22,803 bases of DNA. Origin: a virus. Every line of letters starts with the position of its first letter. Positions within the stretch are counted from its first letter, which is position 1. The stretch spans positions 1 to 22,803 of the IMG/VR virus record IMGVR_UViG_3300044858_001014. The stretch is one strand, 5' to 3'. Made by a program: the position numbers and the translations under genes. Positions 1 to 22,574 of this stretch are shown piece by piece. The notes beneath the pieces were generated by a model that ran no database searches, was not told the origin of the DNA, and was given only the letters and a program-made list of their open reading frames with translations.

Positions 1-2796
1 GTAGCCGTAGACGTTAATAAACTCATCTGCCATCATCTTGTATTTTGTGTCACCCGTGTTTCGGTACATCATGTACGAGCCAAGCGCTGACGTAACAGGC
101 TTAAGCATTGTGTTAATTCCAGTAGCTAGGGCGTTAACTGAAAAAGTTCTCGGTCCAGACAACAGGAAGTTAATCCACAACTCGTTGTGCATATCGAGAG
201 CAGACACGGGCGCTTGCGAAACAAGCCCCGCCGCCCCGTGCTTGGAATAAAGCTTGTCCAGTTTTTCTAGGGTAATCTCAACTTGCTCCTTGCCGCCAGC
301 CTGTTCCATAAGGCTTTTGGCGTATTCGACAAGAGTTGTAGTTTCTTTAATCTGCTTAAACACGTTGAGGTTACGCCCAGCCGAAGAACGAATAGTCTGG
401 TATCCAAACAACACTTCGCGAAGGTTGTCTTGAACTTGGGTGGCGGCCAGATAGCTTTCAGCGTACTTCTTTAAAATTGTTGGGTCGTTAGGCGACTTAA
501 GTAGCCAATCACGGGCCCTCAAGAACTCAGCCGTGTGCTGGCCTTGCTTGTCCTTCAGGGCCACGGCCATGCCGTAGTAAGCACGGATACGTGCGTCTAG
601 GTGGCGCTCGTTACGGGCGTCCTTAGCCAGACGGCTTAGAACGGCGTTACCTCCATCCATCTTTTTAATAAAATCTAGGGCCTCTTTGGCCACAACTTCT
701 TGCGTCCTGACAGGGCCTTTGGCCTTTTCAAGCACGTCAGCAAACGTCTCCATCAGGGCCAAGGATGCCCGGTGCGCTGTTTCCGTATCTTTAAAATCTT
801 CTAAGTTAAATACAGGACGGCCCCCGTCATCCACCCAAGCTTTAGCTAGGTTCTGCAAGTCCGTTGGGTTTGCTTCAAAAAGCTTAACGTAGTTTTCAAA
901 ACGTTTGCGTGTTTCAGGGCTTACTTCTGGAAGGATTCTACCTACTTCTCCCGGGTCAGCCCCTATCGCTCTAGCCCGAGCCATAAACCTAGCGTCCGTG
1001 TACCTAGGAGTTTTTTGAGCAAGCTCAAGCGTAGACAATTTCCATCCGCCCCAAGTTGGCTTCTTACCGTAATTCTCTCCTTTAAGAACGTATTCAAAAA
1101 TATCGTTTAGCGTAGCCGGGTCTTTTCGCCCAAACATTGAGCTCAACGTTTCTTTAATTTTTCCAAGAATCTCTTCAAACACGGCCACCAAATCTTTGTG
1201 CTCCGTTTTGTTTTTAATCACGTACTCAGCAAATGATTGGGCAAACCATTCAGTTTCGCTTTTGGCAAAGTATTTAGCGTAGTAATCGGGCTCAAAAGTC
1301 TTTCTTGTCGCGGCTACGCCTTCTTTAAAGAAACCAACTCGTTCTGATCGAGTAGTTGCCGAGTAAGCGTCAGAAATAAGCCTTTTCTGCTCAGGGCTTA
1401 AAAGAGAATAATATCCAGAGTGCCCGTATTCATGCCAAAACGTAGAAAGTGTTTGAGCCTCTTTCTCTCCTATTTTGTATTTATCAGCCAGCGCTTTTTG
1501 TAGAGTAATTAAAGGCTTCCAACCGGGTACTACGGCCCCGTCTTTCCTTACAGAGGTTTCTATAACCCCACCTCTACCAAGGCTTGTGGATTTAGACGTT
1601 AAAGTAGCTACTTCTAAATTTTTAAGGTACTCGTCATTTGCTTCGGCTTTCCAGAGTGTACCAATAATAAGGTCTTTACCGTTTTCAGTTAAGCCCTTGT
1701 CCTCGACAAGCAAGTCAAGGCGTTTAGTAAACTTTGCGTGACCCTCGCCGCGCTGGTCAAAATTTGCTCGTAGCTCTTGCGGGCTAGCAAACTGATTTAT
1801 AGGAGCGTCACGGCCCAAAAGCGTCTGGCCTTGAGCTAAATCCTGTTTTAGTCCTTCAGCGCCTTCAACAGATTGCCTAAGCTGGTCTTGGCGACCAAGC
1901 TCGGTTTCCATCACCTGAGCGGATTCGCGTGCGGACTTTACAAGCGGGTCAATTTCTTTTCCAGCTTCTTCTAATACTTTTTCGGCTTCTGCTGTTTTCC
2001 CGGCTTCAGCAAGGTTTCTGGACTTTTTAAGCGCCTTAATACCAAGCATAACGCCGTCGATGACTCCACCGACCATAACCCCTTCAAGAACATTTTTAAT
2101 TCGTCCCTCTAGAAGGCTGTCATCTTTGTCAGCCGCTAGGTATTCAGTTACAGGGTTTTCTAGACCCGGGATGCCTTGAATAAGATTAGAAAGGCGCTCT
2201 TCGTGTTCGTCAAAAACTGAGAAATCTGCTACAGCGCCAGCAACCGCCCCACGGCCTATTTCTGACCTTTGGAGCCAGCGCCCGATTGAACCCATTTTAG
2301 CTAGCTTGCCGACCTTTGCCGCTTTATTTATCACACCAAACACCGGGATAAACCCGACAGCAAATTCTGTACCTACTTCAACAAATCCTCCTACCGCTGT
2401 TTTTGTTTTAGGAAGATATTGAGTAAGTAAATCATTAGGAAGTGCTCCAAAAGCAACTAAATCTGCAACGCTTTCAACTGCCCCGGCAACACCTCTAGCC
2501 GCCCCGGTAGCGGCATCTAGCAAGTAATCTTCAGCGCCTAGCTCTTGTGTGGAAGGAGCCAAAGCATCCTGAGCCGGGCTAGGAGCGGGCTGGTTAGGTT
2601 GTACAGGGGTTTGTAGTTTAGGTGCTGAAATCTCAATGCTCTCAGAAGGCTGAGGCTGAGGAGCAACGGCTGGTTGTTGAACTGGTTCGGCTACAACTGC
2701 ACGACGACGAGTGAGTCCGCCTTGCTCGAGCTCGGTGTAAACTGAATCAATCTCCTGATTTAATTCTTCAGGAGATACCTGATCTAAAAAATCCAT
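1..2796 (-). CDS. Large ejected virion protein in T7 gp16 position, with zinc-metallopeptidase motif (partial)
   Basis: 932 codons are open from the ATG at 2796 to the left edge with no stop. The N-terminal 85 residues are acidic then proline/glutamine-rich. Two weakly hydrophobic regions follow (about 97-120 and 135-160), then DKDDSLLEGRIKNVLEGVMVGG (224-245), a pattern common in large ejected phage proteins. Residues 453-459 read FWHEYGH, an HExxH zinc site, and ETEWFAQSFAEY (514-525) offers the third ligand, probably E516. Later LWINFLLSGPRTFSVNALAT (873-892) resembles the SGPxTxxVN motif of giant virion proteins. T7 gp16 has an N-terminal lytic transglycosylase instead; none is visible here. 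Start overlaps the gp15 TAA by one base. Confidence 0.85.
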   Translation of the reverse strand, partial: MDFLDQVSPEELNQEIDSVYTELEQGGLTRRRAVVAEPVQQPAVAPQPQPSESIEISAPKLQTPVQPNQPAPSPAQDALAPSTQELGAEDYLLDAATGAARGVAGAVESVADLVAFGALPNDLLTQYLPKTKTAVGGFVEVGTEFAVGFIPVFGVINKAAKVGKLAKMGSIGRWLQRSEIGRGAVAGAVADFSVFDEHEERLSNLIQGIPGLENPVTEYLAADKDDSLLEGRIKNVLEGVMVGGVIDGVMLGIKALKKSRNLAEAGKTAEAEKVLEEAGKEIDPLVKSARESAQVMETELGRQDQLRQSVEGAEGLKQDLAQGQTLLGRDAPINQFASPQELRANFDQRGEGHAKFTKRLDLLVEDKGLTENGKDLIIGTLWKAEANDEYLKNLEVATLTSKSTSLGRGGVIETSVRKDGAVVPGWKPLITLQKALADKYKIGEKEAQTLSTFWHEYGHSGYYSLLSPEQKRLISDAYSATTRSERVGFFKEGVAATRKTFEPDYYAKYFAKSETEWFAQSFAEYVIKNKTEHKDLVAVFEEILGKIKETLSSMFGRKDPATLNDIFEYVLKGENYGKKPTWGGWKLSTLELAQKTPRYTDARFMARARAIGADPGEVGRILPEVSPETRKRFENYVKLFEANPTDLQNLAKAWVDDGGRPVFNLEDFKDTETAHRASLALMETFADVLEKAKGPVRTQEVVAKEALDFIKKMDGGNAVLSRLAKDARNERHLDARIRAYYGMAVALKDKQGQHTAEFLRARDWLLKSPNDPTILKKYAESYLAATQVQDNLREVLFGYQTIRSSAGRNLNVFKQIKETTTLVEYAKSLMEQAGGKEQVEITLEKLDKLYSKHGAAGLVSQAPVSALDMHNELWINFLLSGPRTFSVNALATGINTMLKPVTSALGSYMMYRNTGDTKYKMMADEFINVYGY

Positions 2797-5105
2797 TATA
2801 GTCCTCTTCCTCGACCAAGAGATTCAACCGCTAGCGCTTGGGCTTGGAAAAATTGCGGTACATCGCGAATGCTTAAATTCTCCATAATCTTCCTTGCACG
2901 TTCATCCCCGTTTCTATACGCAATTCGGAAGCTTGCAAGCTCTTCTACAGAGGTAAACACCGGGGTTACTAGAGGGTTAAGGTTTGGGTCAATTTCGATG
3001 TTTTCGTCAGTTTGGCCGTAAAAAATCTCAGCCGGGGTGTAGCCTTTAGAAGCCTTAGCTGTCCAATAGCGATACTTGTCAGCTTCCATTTTAGCTGTGC
3101 TTTTAGGGACATCATACGTCCGCACGTCCATAATAAGGTCTGAACTAGGGGCCAATAGCTTAGTTTCAGTCTTTTTCCTCACTTCTTCGGCTGTGCGGGC
3201 GACAACTTTATCTACTTTAGCGTCCAAACGAGCCAAATCACGCTTAATAATATCAGCCCGGTCAGGAGCAATACCCATTTTAGAAGCCCTAGCTAGTTCA
3301 ACAATGTTCCGAATGCGGTTACGATACGTCTGTACTTGAGAAACTTCGTCAAAATTTAGCCATCCGGGTCCAGCTAAAGACTTATCGGTATCTTGCGCGG
3401 CCTCTGCTTTAGCCCGGACCTCAGCGTTGCGTTTTTCTTCAATATCAATAGCTTTAATCTGCTTGTTTCCGTAATCTTGAAGAGTTTTTACAACCCTTTC
3501 GCGTACGTTATTCATAACAATCGGAGCGGCTTTATCTTGAGTCATGCCCGGGTTGCCAGCTAAGTAGGCGTCCATCTCGACTTTTACAGCTTTATTAAAT
3601 TCTAGGTCTACAAGCCCTGCTAAAGCATTTGCCACAGCGGGTCTATCGTCAAATTCAATCCCAATCGAGCTCTTAACTGCGGCCCGTGCTTCGGCTGAAG
3701 ACTGACTTTTTAGTAAAGGCTCATAGCTTTTTAAAGACTGCAACGCTTCAAGCATTTTAGCTTGGTTTGTCCCGTTAAACCCGCTCTCTTGGCCAAGATC
3801 GTAGAGTCTATTGGCCTCGGCAATGTCGTTGTTGACGATAGCAGTCTGAAACCTTGTCATATGCTCGGAGTTAGGCTGTGCGTTAAGGTTACGGCGTTCC
3901 TCAACCAGCTTCCTGACCGTGTTTCCAATAACTCCGTGTAAGTCGGTCTTGGTGGATAGAGGAGTTTGGACAAAGTTCCCAGAGCCGTCAGGAAGAGGAA
4001 CGTTGGCGGCAATAAGAGCGCTGGTAATATCGTTAATTGCGTTGGGGTCGTTGATGTTCTTGTACTGATCAATCAAAATATAGGCCCTGTCTTGAGCGGC
4101 AGTAAGTACATTACCTCGTTCTTGAAGAGCGGACCCTTCTTCTGTTTGAATCGTTCGAATAACAGCTTCTTCCATGTTATTAAACAACTCTAAAGTGTTT
4201 CCTTCTCCAACAATGTACCCATTAGGCAGTTTAGTGTTCTTAATTGAATCAATGACCGAAAGGGCTTTGTCTGGATTTGTACGCCGCAACTCATCAATGT
4301 AAGGCATTACCCCGGTTTTAATGGCGTAGTAAGTTGGGTTTGACATCCCGCTTGAAGCGGCTTCGCCAACAGCCGCGATGAAAGAGCCTACAACTGCTTG
4401 CGTTTGCTCTTCGGAAGGCAAAGCTTCAGCGGATTTAAAGCCGCGCTGAATAGAAATACCAAGCTGGTTCCTAGCGTCGATCTCGCGCTGTTCCAAACGT
4501 CTGTTTAGCGCCGACGTTGAAAAAGACTTAAAAGTGGTGGCCGCAACTTCATTCGCCGCCGCCTTTGCAAAAACAGAATCTAAATTAAAACCAGACTTCT
4601 TTTGATACTCCGCCCACGCTTGAGCCTGAATGGATTCAATGGGCTCAGTATTCTTTGGATCGGACATTTTGCCCATCCAATTTTGGTGAAGGTACTCTTG
4701 AAATCCCGGGGCAACAATGTTTTTAGCCGTGTTCTCCATGTAGCTTTTCCAGTACATGGGGTTACTGCTTTCTTTAAGGACACCAGCTTTAACAGCGTTT
4801 TGAAACCCCATCCGAAGGACTTGCCGGGCTTTTTCAGGATCAGAATTGGCGTCTGCTTCACCTTCCTGTCTTGCTTCTACGGCTTCGCCACGTAAATAAG
4901 AAAGGCCGAACGAAGCTAACTGCGAATTTAGCCCTTTGAGAGATTCGGCAACTTGGAGTAGCTCGTTGCTCTCTGAGGGCTGAGAAGCCGCAGGGGCCGG
5001 GGGAGCCATAAGCTGTGAAGCTTGGACCAGCGGAGACGGCGTAATAGAAGGAGCAAAGCCTAAACCTCGCTCCGCTCTGCGCGGAATGATTCTTTCCTCG
5101 GCCAT
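2796..5105 (-). CDS. Internal virion protein C, T7 gp15-like
   Basis: 769 residues, against 747 in T7. With gp16 it forms the periplasmic tunnel for DNA ejection. It is almost wholly helical, with a proline-rich N-terminal tail (SITPSPLVQASQL, MAPPAPAA), then LLQVAESLKGLNSQLASFGL and many Ala/Glu/Lys-rich helices typical of gp15. Near the C terminus, AEIFYGQTDE and PVFTSVEELASFRIAYRNGDE are typical of podovirus gp15 ends. It is linked by TAATG junctions to gp14 before it and the gp16-position gene after it, which suggests the three are made in fixed proportion. Confidence 0.9.
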   Translation of the reverse strand: MAEERIIPRRAERGLGFAPSITPSPLVQASQLMAPPAPAASQPSESNELLQVAESLKGLNSQLASFGLSYLRGEAVEARQEGEADANSDPEKARQVLRMGFQNAVKAGVLKESSNPMYWKSYMENTAKNIVAPGFQEYLHQNWMGKMSDPKNTEPIESIQAQAWAEYQKKSGFNLDSVFAKAAANEVAATTFKSFSTSALNRRLEQREIDARNQLGISIQRGFKSAEALPSEEQTQAVVGSFIAAVGEAASSGMSNPTYYAIKTGVMPYIDELRRTNPDKALSVIDSIKNTKLPNGYIVGEGNTLELFNNMEEAVIRTIQTEEGSALQERGNVLTAAQDRAYILIDQYKNINDPNAINDITSALIAANVPLPDGSGNFVQTPLSTKTDLHGVIGNTVRKLVEERRNLNAQPNSEHMTRFQTAIVNNDIAEANRLYDLGQESGFNGTNQAKMLEALQSLKSYEPLLKSQSSAEARAAVKSSIGIEFDDRPAVANALAGLVDLEFNKAVKVEMDAYLAGNPGMTQDKAAPIVMNNVRERVVKTLQDYGNKQIKAIDIEEKRNAEVRAKAEAAQDTDKSLAGPGWLNFDEVSQVQTYRNRIRNIVELARASKMGIAPDRADIIKRDLARLDAKVDKVVARTAEEVRKKTETKLLAPSSDLIMDVRTYDVPKSTAKMEADKYRYWTAKASKGYTPAEIFYGQTDENIEIDPNLNPLVTPVFTSVEELASFRIAYRNGDERARKIMENLSIRDVPQFFQAQALAVESLGRGRGL

Positions 5106-5779
5106 TAGATGTTAAAGCGCCACCCGTCACCGCCGGGGGTGGTGTTATCTTGCAATCCACCGCCGCCAGTTCCGCCCTGATAGTAACGGCCTTGGTAATA
5201 AGTTTGACCAGCGCTGAGAACGTTGCCGAGAGCGTTAATAGCAAACCCAGCAAAAGAAGGGCGCTGAATTGGTCGGTTGATTTGAGCAATGTTCATTTGA
5301 GACGAGAGGCGCGAAGTATCCAAATTCATCTGCAAAGCTTTGTTCATATTCTTTGTAGTTTGTTCATAGTAAACATCGCGCATCTGCCCCTGCCTAGTGC
5401 TGGCTTCAAAATAACCTAGCTCTTGGCGGTTGATTTCCCCCAAAAGCGATTCAACTGCAATACCGCCAATACCAGCTTCGCCAGCGGCCACGGTGGCTCG
5501 GGACGACGCCGCTCTAGCTTCCATTGAAACTTTATTAAGTTCCCGCGAAGCGGCTTCTTTTTCCTGTGCCTGACGCAAGCGAAGCGCTTCTTGTTCTTGT
5601 TGGTTTTTTAAAGCTAATTGGGCTTGTTCTTGTTGGGCACGCTGTTGTTCCAGCGTGATCATTTGATTTTGGTAAGAAGCCTGTTGACTAGCTTGTTGTT
5701 GGGCCCCTACGTACTGAAGGGCAGTAGAGGCTAGGCCGACTACAAGGCTACCAATGGCGAATACTGCTGGGGCACACAT
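5105..5779 (-). CDS. Internal virion protein B, T7 gp14-like
   Basis: 224 residues, against 196 in T7. In T7, gp14 leaves the head first and sits in the outer membrane to begin the DNA-ejection channel. Seen here: the typical MCAP start and hydrophobic N-terminal helix (FAIGSLVVGLASTALQYVGA), a long Gln/Glu/Ala-rich coiled coil (about residues 27-85), VSMEARAASSRATVAAGEAGIGGIAVESLL, then a Gln/Asn-rich part and a Gly-rich tail. It starts 3 nt after the gp13-like stop without a ribosome site, and its TAA overlaps the gp15 ATG by one base. Confidence 0.9.
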   Translation of the reverse strand: MCAPAVFAIGSLVVGLASTALQYVGAQQQASQQASYQNQMITLEQQRAQQEQAQLALKNQQEQEALRLRQAQEKEAASRELNKVSMEARAASSRATVAAGEAGIGGIAVESLLGEINRQELGYFEASTRQGQMRDVYYEQTTKNMNKALQMNLDTSRLSSQMNIAQINRPIQRPSFAGFAINALGNVLSAGQTYYQGRYYQGGTGGGGLQDNTTPGGDGWRFNI

Positions 5780-5782
5780 ATA

Positions 5783-6340
5783 TCAGAGTTTTACGCTTAG
5801 AAATTCAATGTAGGGTTCTTTATTCAATCCGTATTCCTTATACTCCCTAATAAACCTGAAGCCAAGCCATTTAAGCCAATCTACGTGCAATTTATTCCAA
5901 AGGCACACAACGTTAAATAGTATGGGGTATAGTTCGTGAAAGGACTTAATCCAATTAGGGCTTTGCCTGAGAAAAGCAATCTTTTCCTTTAGTAAGTCGT
6001 TGCTTCCCAACAACCATATTACGCCAACCGTTGGGCTATAATGATTTACGCCGAAAATGGCCACAACCTCGTTTTTGATAGTTATGCTGTATGTATAGGG
6101 GGATTGGATGATCCCTTGTTCTATGGCCTTCCCGGGACATCCCGTAGTTACGGCCCTTATTTCGCGCAAGTCTTCAGGGCGTAACTTAGGAGCTAGGGAA
6201 AAAGCGTCCTCAGGAAGCGCCTTTCGGACAGCGCAACCACGCTCATAATCCCAAACTTCGTCAGCCAGCCCTTTGAGAACGGGAGACGTATTGTGCCTCG
6301 ACGTCCAACGAAAGGAGGGAGCAGGGGTGGGGTGAGTCAT
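5783..6340 (-). CDS. Internal virion protein A / GNAT-like protein, T7 gp13 position
   Basis: 185 residues, against 138 in T7 gp13. From residue 38 it reads VRKALPEDAFSLAPKLRPEDLREI, the usual beginning of the podovirus acyltransferase-like gp13 group, then TYSITIKNEVVAIFGV, GVIWLLGSNDLLKEK and a final WLKWLGFRFIREYKEYG segment, a GNAT-type C-terminal pattern. The acetyl-CoA P-loop is not obvious, so enzymatic activity is uncertain. The only normal start in frame is the ATG at 6340, giving an 80-nt overlap with gp12; the first 37 residues look like overlap-derived sequence. No ribosome site precedes it. Confidence 0.78.
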   Translation of the reverse strand: MTHPTPAPSFRWTSRHNTSPVLKGLADEVWDYERGCAVRKALPEDAFSLAPKLRPEDLREIRAVTTGCPGKAIEQGIIQSPYTYSITIKNEVVAIFGVNHYSPTVGVIWLLGSNDLLKEKIAFLRQSPNWIKSFHELYPILFNVVCLWNKLHVDWLKWLGFRFIREYKEYGLNKEPYIEFLSVKL

Positions 6341-10683: not shown

Positions 10684-10944
10684 CTATTTATCCTTTGGTG
10701 GAGGACCTGTCAACCAACCTTCTGGTAGTTTTACTTTTTTAGCTGACTTCTCCCATTCCTTACCATTCCAGAAGTAAACAAACCCCTCTGTCTCCGGGCC
10801 AATCCTAAGCATTGTATCCCCGGTAGTATCAACGAATATCAGATTTTTTGTCTCTGAGGTACTCGCGCATCCTGTCAGACCAACGAGCGTGCAAAGTAGA
10901 AGGGGGAGGCCCAAGATCAGTACCCTTAACTGGCCTACTTGCAT
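10684..10944 (-). CDS. Outer-membrane lipoprotein, probably lysis-associated
   Basis: 86 residues from the ATG at 10944. A signal peptide (LRVLILGLPLLLCTLVG) ends in the lipobox LTGC; Cys26 would be lipidated, and Ala at +2 favours the outer membrane. The mature 61 residues read like a known type of phage lipoprotein: MLRIGPETEGFVYFWNGKEW then VKLPEGWLTGPPP. The frame is open to 11037, but I chose 10944 because GGGGGAGG lies 7 nt before it and the signal peptide then begins properly. Its signal-peptide part lies inside the 60-aa membrane gene. An o-spanin-like role is plausible from placement; it lacks the proline richness of Rz1. Confidence 0.72.
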   Translation of the reverse strand: MQVGQLRVLILGLPLLLCTLVGLTGCASTSETKNLIFVDTTGDTMLRIGPETEGFVYFWNGKEWEKSAKKVKLPEGWLTGPPPKDK

Positions 10945-11011
10945 CTTTGACCTCCCCCTTAATGATTTTCCAGATAGCCAGAATAAGGGCCTCAATAAGA
11001 CCCCAAAACAT
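10829..11011 (-). CDS. Small membrane-anchored protein of the lysis-like cassette
   Basis: 60 residues: MFWGLIEALILAIWKIIKG is an N-terminal membrane helix, followed by a charged tail with RWSDRMREYLRDKKSDIR. AAGGA lies 9 nt upstream, at the end of the holin gene. The lipoprotein gene starts inside it in another frame and overlaps it by 116 nt, the arrangement seen for Rz/Rz1 spanins. It is, however, much shorter than known inner-membrane spanins (T7 gp18.5 has 143 residues), so a spanin role is only a possibility. Confidence 0.62.
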   Translation of the reverse strand: MFWGLIEALILAIWKIIKGEVKDASRPVKGTDLGPPPSTLHARWSDRMREYLRDKKSDIR

Positions 11012-11014
11012 GGC

Positions 11015-11185
11015 TTAGTCCTTTTTAATCTTGGCAATCAGGGACCAACCGAGGCCAACAGCGGCTACAACGCCACCTACGATGGCTTCAACAGCGGCCT
11101 GATCAACAGTACCCTTGGCAACAAAATAGCCGCCAACGGCAGTTAGGATATGCCGAATAACGGCACTAATAATGTCAGGTGTCAT
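11015..11185 (-). CDS. Holin-like small membrane protein (Pam3-gp28 type)
   Basis: 56 codons: MTPDIISAVIRHILTAVGGY, a second hydrophobic segment (AIVGGVVAAVGLGWSLIAKI) and a Lys-rich tail. Two helices with a short polar turn containing an acidic residue and a basic C terminus match the small holin family typified by cyanophage Pam3 gp28, with the shared RH-x-L-T-x-x-G-G-x-x-V-A-x-G pattern. It would form membrane holes that time lysis. AAAGGG lies 11 nt upstream, and the next gene starts 3 nt after its TAA. No endolysin adjoins it. Confidence 0.72.
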   Translation of the reverse strand: MTPDIISAVIRHILTAVGGYFVAKGTVDQAAVEAIVGGVVAAVGLGWSLIAKIKKD

Positions 11186-14282: not shown

Positions 14283-14608
14283 TGGCTCCAAGGAAGGGGT
14301 AAGGCTGTGAAAACTGTTTGTGGGTTTTGTCTGCCTTTAATTTGATTTTCTAGATTGTCTTCAATGGCTTTTACACCTTTTTCCCCGAGTACTGTTTTAA
14401 CCCATTCAATAATTTGGTTTTCTTTTAAAAGATTATATGGAGTGAAGTCTCCTTCTGAATAAGATAAACGTACAGCATCAGAAACAGTAGCTACAAATTC
14501 TCCTTCTTTCGCAGACACGCAAAATAAAACCAATATAACTACATTTTCCTTTCCGTTTTGCTCGGGCGCTACAGCCAAAGAGTCTACTGTCCAATCAAAA
14601 GTTATCAT
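14279..14608 (-). CDS. Small phage protein of the FDWTV type (possibly DUF7936-like)
   Basis: 109 residues. The start, MITFDWTVDSLAVAPEQNG, and a second strand, ENVVILVLFCVSAKEG, followed by VSDAVRLSYSEGDFTPYNLL and an ending PLPW, resemble a family of short phage or prophage proteins that begin with FxWxV and contain PxxxLxE before a helical segment. I recall these as DUF7936; the assignment is tentative and no molecular role is known to me. The ATG overlaps the TGA of the YadA-like gene by 4 nt, so the two are translated together, which suggests a shared structural role. Confidence 0.55.
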   Translation of the reverse strand: MITFDWTVDSLAVAPEQNGKENVVILVLFCVSAKEGEFVATVSDAVRLSYSEGDFTPYNLLKENQIIEWVKTVLGEKGVKAIEDNLENQIKGRQNPQTVFTALPLPWSQ

Positions 14609-15363
14609 GGAGTCTCCAACTTAATTTTATATTGAGTCCCGTTCAAGTACACTATCCAATGCATATGCGCGGAGCCACCTGAGTTATTACTTAGAAGATT
14701 TCCCATGGCGTTAGCCCCACTTCCTCCTAACGAAAACGATCCATCTACTGCCGGGGAAATAGCCCCAAAACCAAGACAAACACAAAAATTTCTTGATGCT
14801 GTATCTACATTACTGTCGTATCCAATTAAAGTGTTAAACGACCCTCCACCTACGGCAGTTCCTGAATTAACTCCAATAGATGTATTGTTGTATCCTGTTG
14901 CGTACCTAAGAGCAAGATTGCCTATAGCAATGTTGTTATTTCCTACACTATTGTAAGATAATGAAAAATAACCAATTCCTATGTTTCCTCCTCCAATCGT
15001 GTTTCCAAGTAACGAATTGGCTCCAATTCCAATGTTTTGTGAACCAAAAGTATTAGAAGAGCAAGCCGACGCCCCGATTCCAACATTAGACCCGCCGCTT
15101 CGGTTGTTAAACAAAGCCCCGGACCCTAAAGCAAGATTTCCTGATCCACCTTCATTTTCTTGAAGAGCCCCAGCGCCTATGGCAACATTTGAACTTCCAA
15201 TTTGATTGTCGCGAAGAGCATTATTACCAATAGCAACATTGCCAGCGGACAAATCAAGAGGAGAATCGTGAGCTAACAGCCCAGCAACTAAACTTCCGTT
15301 GCGGTTGCTTGGAAAACCACGAAATAAACGGCTTTCGTCAATATATGGAACTAAAAAACCCAT
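14605..15363 (-). CDS. YadA-like repeat protein (NVAIGxxAL repeats), probable adhesin or fibre
   Basis: 252 residues. From about residue 40 to 180 there are about nine repeats of 15-17 residues with the core N-(V/I)-(A/G)-IG-x-x-(A/S)-L-x-x-N-x-x-G, for example SSNVAIGAGALQENEGG and GNIGIGYFSLSYNSVG. Such repeats form the left-handed beta-roll of trimeric adhesin heads and occur in phage tail fibres. The N terminus (MGFLVPYIDESRLFRGFPS) would attach it; the C terminus is short, ending YLNGTQYKIKLETP. It lacks the S74 chaperone domain often found after these repeats and has no T7 gp17 N-terminal domain. AAGG lies upstream of the ATG. Position next to a virion-type gene suggests host recognition; this is an inference. 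Confidence 0.65.
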   Translation of the reverse strand: MGFLVPYIDESRLFRGFPSNRNGSLVAGLLAHDSPLDLSAGNVAIGNNALRDNQIGSSNVAIGAGALQENEGGSGNLALGSGALFNNRSGGSNVGIGASACSSNTFGSQNIGIGANSLLGNTIGGGNIGIGYFSLSYNSVGNNNIAIGNLALRYATGYNNTSIGVNSGTAVGGGSFNTLIGYDSNVDTASRNFCVCLGFGAISPAVDGSFSLGGSGANAMGNLLSNNSGGSAHMHWIVYLNGTQYKIKLETP

Positions 15364-15934: not shown

Positions 15935-16165
15935 TTAGCTAGGGAGGTTTAGCCCGGTGTCGGTCCCGCCCGTCATATCAATACGGAGGGCAGAACGTCC
16001 ACGCCGAAGGGGCCGCAACCGCTGTTCGCCAGCGTCGCTACCAGCCGTCTCCATTGCCGGAGCCACCTTTTCAGCGGTAGGCGTCGGAGGAGGGGTAGGC
16101 GGCGGGGGCGGGGGCGGAGGCGGAGGGGGCGGAGGAGGAGAGGGCGGGCTAGATGACATACACAT
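15935..16165 (-). CDS. Proline-tract small virion protein, T7 gp7.3-like C terminus
   Basis: 76 residues. Residues 10-23 are fourteen consecutive prolines, followed by TPPPTPT, then a basic segment (LRPLRRGRSALRI) and the ending GTDTGLNLPS. T7 gp7.3, a tail or virion assembly protein, likewise ends with a basic GKKSLSV segment and a Gly-x-Asn-Ile terminus (GGGINI), and it is encoded in the same interval between exonuclease and portal. I therefore infer a gp7.3-type role; the N-terminal proline tract is different. A second ATG (residue 3) is an alternative start. A run this long normally needs EF-P to be translated. The antisense poly-Gly frame is a shadow. Confidence 0.65.
   Translation of the reverse strand: MCMSSSPPSPPPPPPPPPPPPPPTPPPTPTAEKVAPAMETAGSDAGEQRLRPLRRGRSALRIDMTGGTDTGLNLPS
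16097..16138. repeat. G/C-rich purine tract encoding poly-proline
   Basis: The plus strand is a near-continuous run of GGC, GGG, GGA and AGG triplets; read on the minus strand it gives fourteen Pro codons (CCG, CCC and CCT mixed). Mixed codons mean it is not a pure triplet expansion. The many GG and GGG runs on the plus strand, which is the template for transcription, could form a G-quadruplex; that is inferred from sequence alone. Confidence 0.7.
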
Positions 16166-17494: not shown

Positions 17495-17869
17495 TTATTT
17501 GTATACCTCCCTTTTTAGTTTTGTTATTTGTCGTTTAATTGTTTGACGGCGGGCTTTCCCAGCCTGATAGAAGTTAAGCGCCAACTGGATTTGGCGTTTT
17601 TTCTCACGGCTAAATGGGTAAATGCACGCCAAGAATCTAAGTGCTTGGTTGCCATAAATCCGCCATTGATAAGACGGACGCCACTTTGGTTTGTCTTTGT
17701 AATGAAACCTTCTAATGTTGCCGCCAAAACGCTTGTGAGCGTCACGAAGAACTGTTGGATAGCACGCATGAATCTGAGCCATAACTGTGCCCTCTGATTC
17801 GATCCGCACCATCCCTTCTCCGTCAAAGTATCCGGCCATGTAGCTCTCATCCCATTCCCTCCTTTGCAT
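17495..17869 (-). CDS. LAGLIDADG homing endonuclease, single motif, free-standing
   Basis: 124 residues. The segment YMAGYFDGEGMVRI is a LAGLIDADG motif (M-A-G-Y-F-D-G-E-G); the acidic residue before the last Gly would be the metal-binding catalytic residue. One motif means it should act as a homodimer, like I-CreI. The rest is basic and aromatic, with a C-terminal Arg/Lys-rich helix, as expected of a DNA binder. It starts one base after the polymerase stop and ends one base before the exonuclease ATG, so it is wedged between two essential genes without disrupting either. It is not inside an intron or intein: the polymerase is uninterrupted. No good ribosome site precedes its ATG, so expression probably relies on coupling. 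Confidence 0.8.
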   Translation of the reverse strand: MQRREWDESYMAGYFDGEGMVRIESEGTVMAQIHACYPTVLRDAHKRFGGNIRRFHYKDKPKWRPSYQWRIYGNQALRFLACIYPFSREKKRQIQLALNFYQAGKARRQTIKRQITKLKREVYK

Positions 17870-21368: not shown

Positions 21369-21573
21369 TCCTCCCGCTGTTCTTTACGATAACTCCGTTT
21401 AGCTTTATCTCGCCCTCATTTGTGTAGTCGGCGCTGTAAGCCACCGGGGCAAGGTCCTCCAAGTCTTTTTCAAGCTCCTTAAATTCAACTTCAGGAAGCC
21501 CAATACTTGTAGGCTTATTACCAAACCTAGTTTCAAACTTTTTCAGGAAGTCCGTGTAATCCGTGTACTTCAA
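21334..21573 (-). CDS. Small hypothetical protein with TTG start, in the T7 gene 3.5-3.8 position
   Basis: 79 residues, starting at TTG. I accept this start because a strong ribosome binding site, AAGGAGGG, lies 8 nt upstream and no ATG exists near it. The protein is acidic in the middle (EVEFKELEKDLEDL) and ends with a short basic segment. I do not recognise the family. It overlaps endonuclease I by 41 nt and the primase-helicase by 35 nt. T7 carries its amidase gp3.5 in this region; this protein has no zinc-binding His/Cys pattern and is half the size, so it is not that enzyme. Confidence 0.6.
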   Translation of the reverse strand: MKYTDYTDFLKKFETRFGNKPTSIGLPEVEFKELEKDLEDLAPVAYSADYTNEGEIKLNGVIVKNSGRNDGTRIQFRTT

Positions 21574-21946
21574 TTTGTGTTCCCTCCTTAATCCAATCGG
21601 CGGGTATTCTTCCGCCGTCCGAAAACTGGAAACCGTTTTTGGTTGCCCAATCTCCGTAAGTTGTTTTGCTGTTTTTATTAAGACGGTTTCTGGCGTTTTG
21701 AAACACCAGACGAATATCCAAACCGGGATTTTGGGCTTTAACGGCCAAAAGTTTTGATCTGTCTTCTGACCTGAACCAGCCCTTAGCCTCGATTATGATT
21801 CCCGTAGGCAAAAAGAAATCGGGTGTGTAGCGACACTCTTTGACGTAGGGAAAGCTCATGCTTTCATACCCAAACTGCACCCCACCCCGAGTGAGGTGGG
21901 ATGCAATCTGAGATTCTAGCTTTGAGCGATATTTAGAAGTCGGCAT
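21533..21946 (-). CDS. Endonuclease I (Holliday-junction resolvase), T7 gp3-like
   Basis: 137 residues, close to the 149 of T7 endonuclease I, which resolves branched DNA and helps degrade host DNA. The catalytic pattern of the family is visible: an N-terminal Glu (E11, in SKLESQIA), then TPDFFLP (D43) and IIIEAKGWF (E53 and K55), matching the E, D, ExK nuclease residues of T7 gp3. An upstream in-frame ATG exists at 22084 inside the SSB gene, but the added 46 residues are a basic shadow of SSB. The start at 21946 overlaps the SSB end by 14 nt and has a GAGG upstream. The 3' end overlaps the next small gene by 41 nt. Confidence 0.88.
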   Translation of the reverse strand: MPTSKYRSKLESQIASHLTRGGVQFGYESMSFPYVKECRYTPDFFLPTGIIIEAKGWFRSEDRSKLLAVKAQNPGLDIRLVFQNARNRLNKNSKTTYGDWATKNGFQFSDGGRIPADWIKEGTQIEVHGLHGLPEKV

Positions 21947-22574
21947 TAGCCTCAACAGGGGCCGTAGACTTCTTTTCGAAGATGTCGTCCGAGAAGCTTT
22001 CGCCGCCAGAAACGTAACCTTCCTCTTCGGCAGTAAAGCCGTAATTATCACTTTGCGAAGGACCGCCCGGGGCCTTGAGATCAAGAACCTGAACAGCCTT
22101 GCAACGCAAGCTTACGCCAACGCCAAGAGCCGGGGTGTACCAAGGGAACACGTCGGTTGCAACTCGAATAACCGAGCCGCCGCCAACACGTTCGTTCATG
22201 GGTTTGTTTTTAGCATCGAACAAGGCAGGGCGCTGTTCCCATTCCTTACCGCTCTTTTTACTTTTGATCTTGGCGGCAAGGGCAAACTTAATCCGAATCT
22301 TTCCCGTTTCGTTGCCTTCCTTGTCGGTATCGTTTTTGATCGGGAGGTCAGCAAGTTTGAGCTCTTTCTTTTTCAGAAGAGCGCATTGCTCCTTGTAATA
22401 ACCTTTGACCACTTCTTTTACTTTAGCCGCGAACTCTTTAGCTTCCTCAGGGGAAACCAAAAGATTGACCGAGTACTCGCCTTCAGGCTTGAACTTGGTG
22501 TCGGGCTCGTTGAGTTTGGGGAATGATGCAATGCCTTTCGGGCTGATCATCCTCACTTGTCGTGTATCGCTCAT
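21933..22574 (-). CDS. Single-stranded DNA-binding protein, T7 gp2.5-like
   Basis: 213 residues, against 232 for T7 gp2.5. In T7 this protein coats single-stranded DNA at the fork, promotes annealing and binds the polymerase and helicase through its acidic tail. Seen here: a basic OB-fold-like body with a conserved-looking VRMISPKGIASFPKLNEPDT start, and an acidic C terminus with EEEGY, SDDIFE and a terminal Phe, the hallmark of gp2.5 proteins. The frame stays open upstream to an ATG at 22649. I chose the ATG at 22574 because AAGGAAGG lies just before it and the protein begins MSDTRQVRM. The end overlaps the endonuclease start by 14 nt, which suggests coupled translation. Confidence 0.88.
   Translation of the reverse strand: MSDTRQVRMISPKGIASFPKLNEPDTKFKPEGEYSVNLLVSPEEAKEFAAKVKEVVKGYYKEQCALLKKKELKLADLPIKNDTDKEGNETGKIRIKFALAAKIKSKKSGKEWEQRPALFDAKNKPMNERVGGGSVIRVATDVFPWYTPALGVGVSLRCKAVQVLDLKAPGGPSQSDNYGFTAEEEGYVSGGESFSDDIFEKKSTAPVEANADF

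Follow-up and report, generated by a model that had tools for sequence, protein, structure and literature searches.

A predicted ATLF-like zincin cassette within the gp16-position ejection protein of a T7-like phage

Gene content and layout of the locus

The window, i.e., the whole 22.8-kb stretch of viral DNA analysed here, carries a T7-like set of late genes on the minus strand, comprising portal, major capsid protein, tail tube, nozzle, a gp13-like protein, gp14, and the proteins in the gp15 and gp16 positions. The gp13-like internal virion protein (5783–6340, minus strand; PHROG 308, E = 4.5e-37) and gp14 (5105–5779, minus strand; Pfam T7_gp14, E = 3.7e-21) are identified by profile matches, while the gp15-position ejection protein (2796–5105, minus strand) is assigned by gene position and contains no detected enzyme domain. 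The gp16-position ORF starts at 2796 on the minus strand and occupies positions 1–2796, which encode residues 1–932, its 3' part lying beyond position 1 at the contig end; the protein was completed to 1555 aa from an identical contig (L002, 10001–14668). The full 1555-aa protein matches PHROG 6651 'internal virion protein' (E = 7e-60), and among annotated proteins it is closest to the 'internal virion protein D' sequences of Pelagibacter, Roseobacter, and Desulfovibrio phages. Judging from gene position only, it would be injected with the DNA.

Four regions can be distinguished along this ejection protein, all encoded on the minus strand. As the first-pass annotation described, the N-terminal part holds a proline-rich tail, visible in the translation at residues ~37–80 (2557–2688), and hydrophobic segments with hydropathy peaks at residues 102–163 and 233–257. 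These segments belong to an N-terminal scaffold (residues 64–297; 1906–2607), delimited by hydropathy and by identity to a sibling protein (L005), which is the presumed analogue of the TMH I region of T7 gp16. It is followed by a putatively mobile zincin (ATLF-like) cassette (residues ~332–598; 1003–1803), delimited by alignment to giant proteins and by a gap in the siblings L005 and L012. The C-terminal scaffold begins at residue 645 (1–864 in the window) and is kept in proteins with or without the cassette.

Elsewhere on the minus strand, a small YFDGEG ORF (17495–17869) between the DNA polymerase and exonuclease genes gave a sub-threshold match to LAGLIDADG_3 (E = 0.0013) and is probably a free-standing homing endonuclease, while a phage endonuclease I gene (21533–22084; Pfam, E = 9.6e-42) overlaps the preceding ORF by ~150 bases. 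Between the scaffold and capsid genes, a lipoprotein-like ORF with an LTGC lipobox (10684–11037) encloses a second ORF in another frame (10829–11011), whose N terminus is hydrophobic, and the two look like an overlapping spanin pair. An NVAIGxxAL-type repeat protein (14605–15363) resembles a fibre or adhesin head and has no Pfam match, and an ORF with a long proline run (15935–16165) is probably not a conventional gene.

A conserved metal-binding signature

The motif FWHEYGH was confirmed in the translation at residues 453–459, as was ETEWFAQSFAEY at residues 514–525, about 60 residues past HEYGH. In HEYGH itself (residues 455–459; 1420–1434, minus strand), H455 and H459 are the predicted zinc ligands and E456 the predicted general base, whereas the predicted third ligand, E516 (1249–1251), opens the motif EWFA (residues 516–519; 1240–1251, minus strand), which aligns with EFFA in anthrax lethal factor. 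Moreover, an invariant Tyr seven residues before this Glu (Y509; 1270–1272, minus strand) aligns with the Tyr that precedes the Glu motif of lethal factor. Conservation was examined in an alignment of 14 sequences, consisting of nine close members (the window protein and eight relatives with the same cassette) and five distant ones, the relatives showing 20–87% identity. The four residues singled out by the first-pass annotation, H455, E456, H459, and E516, are invariant across all 14, together with G458, Y509, W517, F518, and A519.

The cassette therefore displays the sequence hallmark of zincins, namely HExxH and a downstream Glu as third ligand, both conserved in relatives, and the earlier gluzincin-type reading stands on these residues, in contrast to its framing as a replacement for a transglycosylase, which is discussed below. 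We infer from the sequence a protease-type domain with predicted zinc binding and catalysis. Shuffling the 1555-aa protein 20,000 times produced HExxH in 0.7% of cases, while HExxH followed 40–90 residues downstream by E[WF]FA[EQ] arose in none.

Two AF2 models of the cassette reached medium to low confidence (pTM 0.62 and 0.68). In the latter, a hairpin (82–97) precedes a helix with HEYGH (114–135) and a helix with the Glu (184–198), an order that fits a zincin in these predictions, although it is no proof of one. Foldseek searches with both medium-to-low-confidence models gave no significant match in the PDB or among viral predictions.

Boundaries, distribution, and mobility of the cassette

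The cassette, from residues 333–336 to 582–598, aligns at 43–47% identity with giant proteins of unrelated phages. Seven such proteins (L017–L020 and L029–L031), of ~1,500–3,500 aa and in some cases cut by contig ends, carry the same cassette, and outside it they share nothing with the gp16-position protein, except that in one case the match runs on briefly beyond the cassette. One giant protein (L030) contains LPD38 and ART-PolyVal domains and matches a DarB-like antirestriction PHROG, and another (L019) has an ART-PolyVal match just below threshold. A third (L029) has a second HExxH (HELGH, residue 826) upstream of the cassette, which suggests two peptidase-like domains in one polypeptide.

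Conversely, the siblings L005 and L012 have the scaffold and lack the cassette. They show ~50% identity to the window protein over residues 45/64–283 (52% over 64–283 for L005) and ~36% over the remainder from residue 627/645 onward (37% over 645–1555 for L005), with a short unrelated linker in place of the intervening 340–360 residues. No HExxH was found in a long ORF of any of the siblings L005–L013, nor in the gp16s of HTVC025P, HTVC011P, CRP-403, ProddE, and LUZ100. Two gp16 lineages carry the cassette, one comprising the window and L002 and the other L003 and L004, at 93% identity. A cassette search of cultured phage records returned no real match, and the corresponding search of genome contigs returned a single distant clostridial one.

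Comparison of the window gene with that of L003 shows divergence to be greatest in the cassette (77–88% nucleotide identity versus about 88–100% for the C-terminal half), which also has a lower GC content (about 42% versus about 50%), while its dN/dS of about 0.08 indicates purifying selection. In the same comparison, nucleotide identity falls from 99% to 77–89% over residues 61–660 relative to most of the remaining gene, which is likely a recombination tract that includes the cassette. These data indicate that residues ~332–598 behave as a discrete, exchangeable module inserted in the middle of the protein.

Relationship to ATLF and lethal factor

Two profiles were used to place the cassette: A3, built from the close cassette set, and A4, an alignment of seven distant phage domains, several of whose members were retrieved by the EWFA pattern. 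Among the distant members are a Mu-F head-morphogenesis fusion (L036) and further proteins with matches to head or ejection-pilot PHROGs. Among 177,635 sequences, A4 finds the window protein at residues 430–542 (E = 2.7e-9), and the comparison of A3 with A4 gives a probability of 98% and a score of 92, versus at most 26 for shuffled decoys. In the PDB, A4 reaches anthrax lethal factor (E = 5.8e-5), and the alignment brings HExGH and Tyr-x6-Glu into register. Of the Pfam families, ATLF (PF07737) fits the cassette best, with matches to 13 of the 14 members; the window cassette itself scores 14.1 bits (E = 0.038), below the gathering cut-off of 27.4 bits. The nine-member close profile did not reach lethal factor in the PDB and, thus, the link to it runs through intermediates only. 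A phmmer search of the PDB with the cassette alone gave nothing, and NCBIfam held no useful match for it.

These comparisons indirectly place the cassette with the anthrax-lethal-factor (ATLF) zincins, via phage head-morphogenesis relatives. In the hmmsearch alignments, ATLF, lethal factor, and the cassette share HExGH and Tyr-x6-Glu-[WF]-F-A in register. Unlike lethal factor, the cassette lies in a phage context and scores below the Pfam threshold, and no toxin role is implied.

Zincin-like domains in other injected proteins

Metallopeptidases (MPTases) are reported to be the most frequent domain among injected polyvalent proteins, in which they were sorted into 12 clades, and the ART-PolyVal and LPD domains are hallmarks of such proteins injected with DNA (PMC5512222; Iyer et al. 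2017). Polyvalent MPTases combine HExxH with a Glu further downstream, on a second helix, as is predicted for the cassette, and they occur in large proteins injected with DNA, as the window protein would be by its gene position; ART and LPD domains share polypeptides with the closest relatives of the cassette (L019, L030), as in polyvalent proteins. In contrast to them, the window cassette has a gp16-type ejection protein as its host and comes from a T7-like phage, and none of the Pfam polyvalent MPTase models matched it, ATLF being the best.

A closer parallel in position is provided by phiKMV-like phages; in phiKMV, gp37 is the gp16 counterpart and has 1337 aa (PMC8954989). A profile of N4 vRNAP C1 domains (A5) matches an 'Internal virion protein' in the PDB (9sfn_G, 1337 aa) at residues 419–561 (E = 1.8e-8), and LUZ19 gp37 (L063) is equally long and is matched by A5 at identical positions (419–561), with HEAVH at 423. 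Matches to this 143-aa stretch occur in 144 phage records, which include vRNAPs, and many phiKMV-like entries are labelled as containing an endolysin domain, a label that presumably does not describe the zincin-like region. Conservation of HExxH extends to phiNV3, LIMElight, a Xanthomonas phage, and Limnohabitans phage YIMV22061, and in both LUZ19 gp37 and YIMV22061 the domain comes after the first hydrophobic region. Thus, phiKMV-like gp37 (LUZ19, LKD16) resembles the window protein in bearing a zincin-like domain past the first hydrophobic region of a gp16-position protein, the LUZ19 domain being of the N4 vRNAP type. Gp16-type proteins with a zincin-like domain are, therefore, not without precedent.

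The two domains differ in type, however, because A5 does not find the window protein and A3 and A4 miss LUZ19 gp37. The N4 vRNAP C1 domain shares with the cassette the occurrence of HExxH in a giant ejected protein and a somewhat similar helix region past the Glu, and the comparison of A3 with A5 is weak (probability 40%, score 36 versus a decoy maximum of 20), the zinc ligands not being aligned. This weak similarity past the Glu may reflect a common ancestor. Two further motifs in gp16 proteins were considered and rejected: HERLH at residue 559 of T7 gp16, which has no zincin match, and HEISH at residue 577 of Bordetella phage BB8 gp16 (L044), which occupies the corresponding slot as a motif without profile support.

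Membrane topology and the transglycosylase question

T7 gp16 consists of a transglycosylase (residues 1–156), TMH I (243–410), a cytoplasmic part (411–1118), and TMH II (1119–1290) (PMC8954989). The window protein has the same gene position after gp14 and gp15 and a similar layout of hydrophobic regions, with a third hydropathy peak at residues 1210–1232 in addition to the two N-terminal ones. In contrast to it, T7 gp16 carries a transglycosylase at its N terminus, and no zincin was detected in it. No sequence homology was detected between the gp16 family of the window and T7 gp16 and, therefore, the topology of the window protein rests on analogy. HEYGH lies ~200 residues past the last peak of the N-terminal hydrophobic region, so that, by this analogy, the cassette would come to lie on the cytoplasmic side, immediately past the first membrane region, a placement that would argue against peptidoglycan and for a cytoplasmic substrate.

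The first-pass annotation saw no transglycosylase in the first 450 residues, and a domain search of the fragment bears this out for SLT and lysozyme domains. It also asked whether such a domain lies at the C terminus, beyond position 1; none was detected along all 1555 aa of the protein completed from L002. Pfam SLT was likewise not detected in the gp16s of HTVC025P, HTVC011P, CRP-403, ProddE, and LUZ100, and was found in that of the more distant phage RHEph01. The description of the cassette as standing 'instead of' the transglycosylase is thus misleading: it is an internal insertion and, since gp16 relatives also lack SLT, its reading as an SLT replacement was rejected. As a separate observation, the N terminus of BB8 gp16 appears lysozyme-like by eye, without profile support.

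Proposed role of the cassette

The favoured reading, to which we assign a probability of roughly 0.5, is that the cassette is an accessory ATLF-type zinc endopeptidase delivered to the host cytoplasm, where it would cut a host protein. The ejection protein would thread through the tail during infection and its N-terminal hydrophobic region would enter the inner membrane, while the cassette, directly behind this region, would refold on the cytoplasmic side, bind Zn2+, and then cleave a protein, a host defence, stress, or transcription factor being the candidate substrate. A host substrate appears likelier than an ejection component because siblings dispense with the cassette and because it diverges fastest, although dispensability and rapid divergence do not favour a host target over ejectosome processing strongly.

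The main rival, which we regard as unlikely on balance, is that the cassette cuts its own polypeptide, e.g., at the proline-rich N terminus, or the neighbouring gp14 and gp15, before or after ejection, releasing parts or remodelling the ejectosome. Autoprocessing is favoured for many polyvalent metallopeptidases, with processed P1 DdrB cited as an example (PMC5512222), and the recurrence of the cassette in giant multidomain proteins is in keeping with it. However, the cassette is missing from siblings that share the gp16 scaffold and likewise have proline-rich N termini, and N4 vRNAP, which also bears an HExxH domain, is packaged unprocessed (PMC5512222). Considerably less probable is a catalytically silent zincin fold acting as a structural or packaging module, by comparison with the corresponding region of N4 vRNAP, which is required for encapsidation (PMC5512222) and for which the accessible part of the N4 vRNAP structure paper mentions no proteolysis; against this, the metal ligands and the catalytic Glu of the cassette are invariant down to 20% identity, which is unusual for a non-enzymatic scaffold, and siblings keep the same scaffold without it.

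Cleavage of peptidoglycan cross-links during entry, in place of the T7 gp16 transglycosylase, is very improbable and the weakest of the three roles proposed in the first-pass annotation, the others being processing of gp14/gp15 and action on a host defence protein. In its favour, no SLT or lysozyme domain was detected in gp13–gp16 of the window phage, but the nearest families (ATLF and Pro-Pro endopeptidases) cleave proteins, the cassette lies past the presumed membrane-spanning region rather than at a periplasmic N terminus, and some siblings have neither a detectable SLT nor the cassette. Finally, a chance HExxH in a helical segment, of which T7 gp16 offers an example and with which the outcome of the AF2 and Foldseek analyses would agree, can practically be dismissed, given that the paired motif is absent from all shuffles and the entire signature is kept across unrelated architectures, a conservation that already contradicts it.

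Implications for T7-like phages

Two distinct zincin types thus occupy the same slot in small, genetically tractable T7-like phages, namely the window cassette and the N4-type domain of LUZ19 gp37. It is a tentative and rather doubtful generalization that T7-type ejection proteins repeatedly gain unrelated zincin cassettes past the first membrane region, forming a general platform for early counter-defence effectors, because a protease placed in this slot would enter the host cytoplasm as soon as infection starts. T7-like phages offer a simple system for these questions, in which one active-site change would separate the host-effector, self-processing, and structural models.
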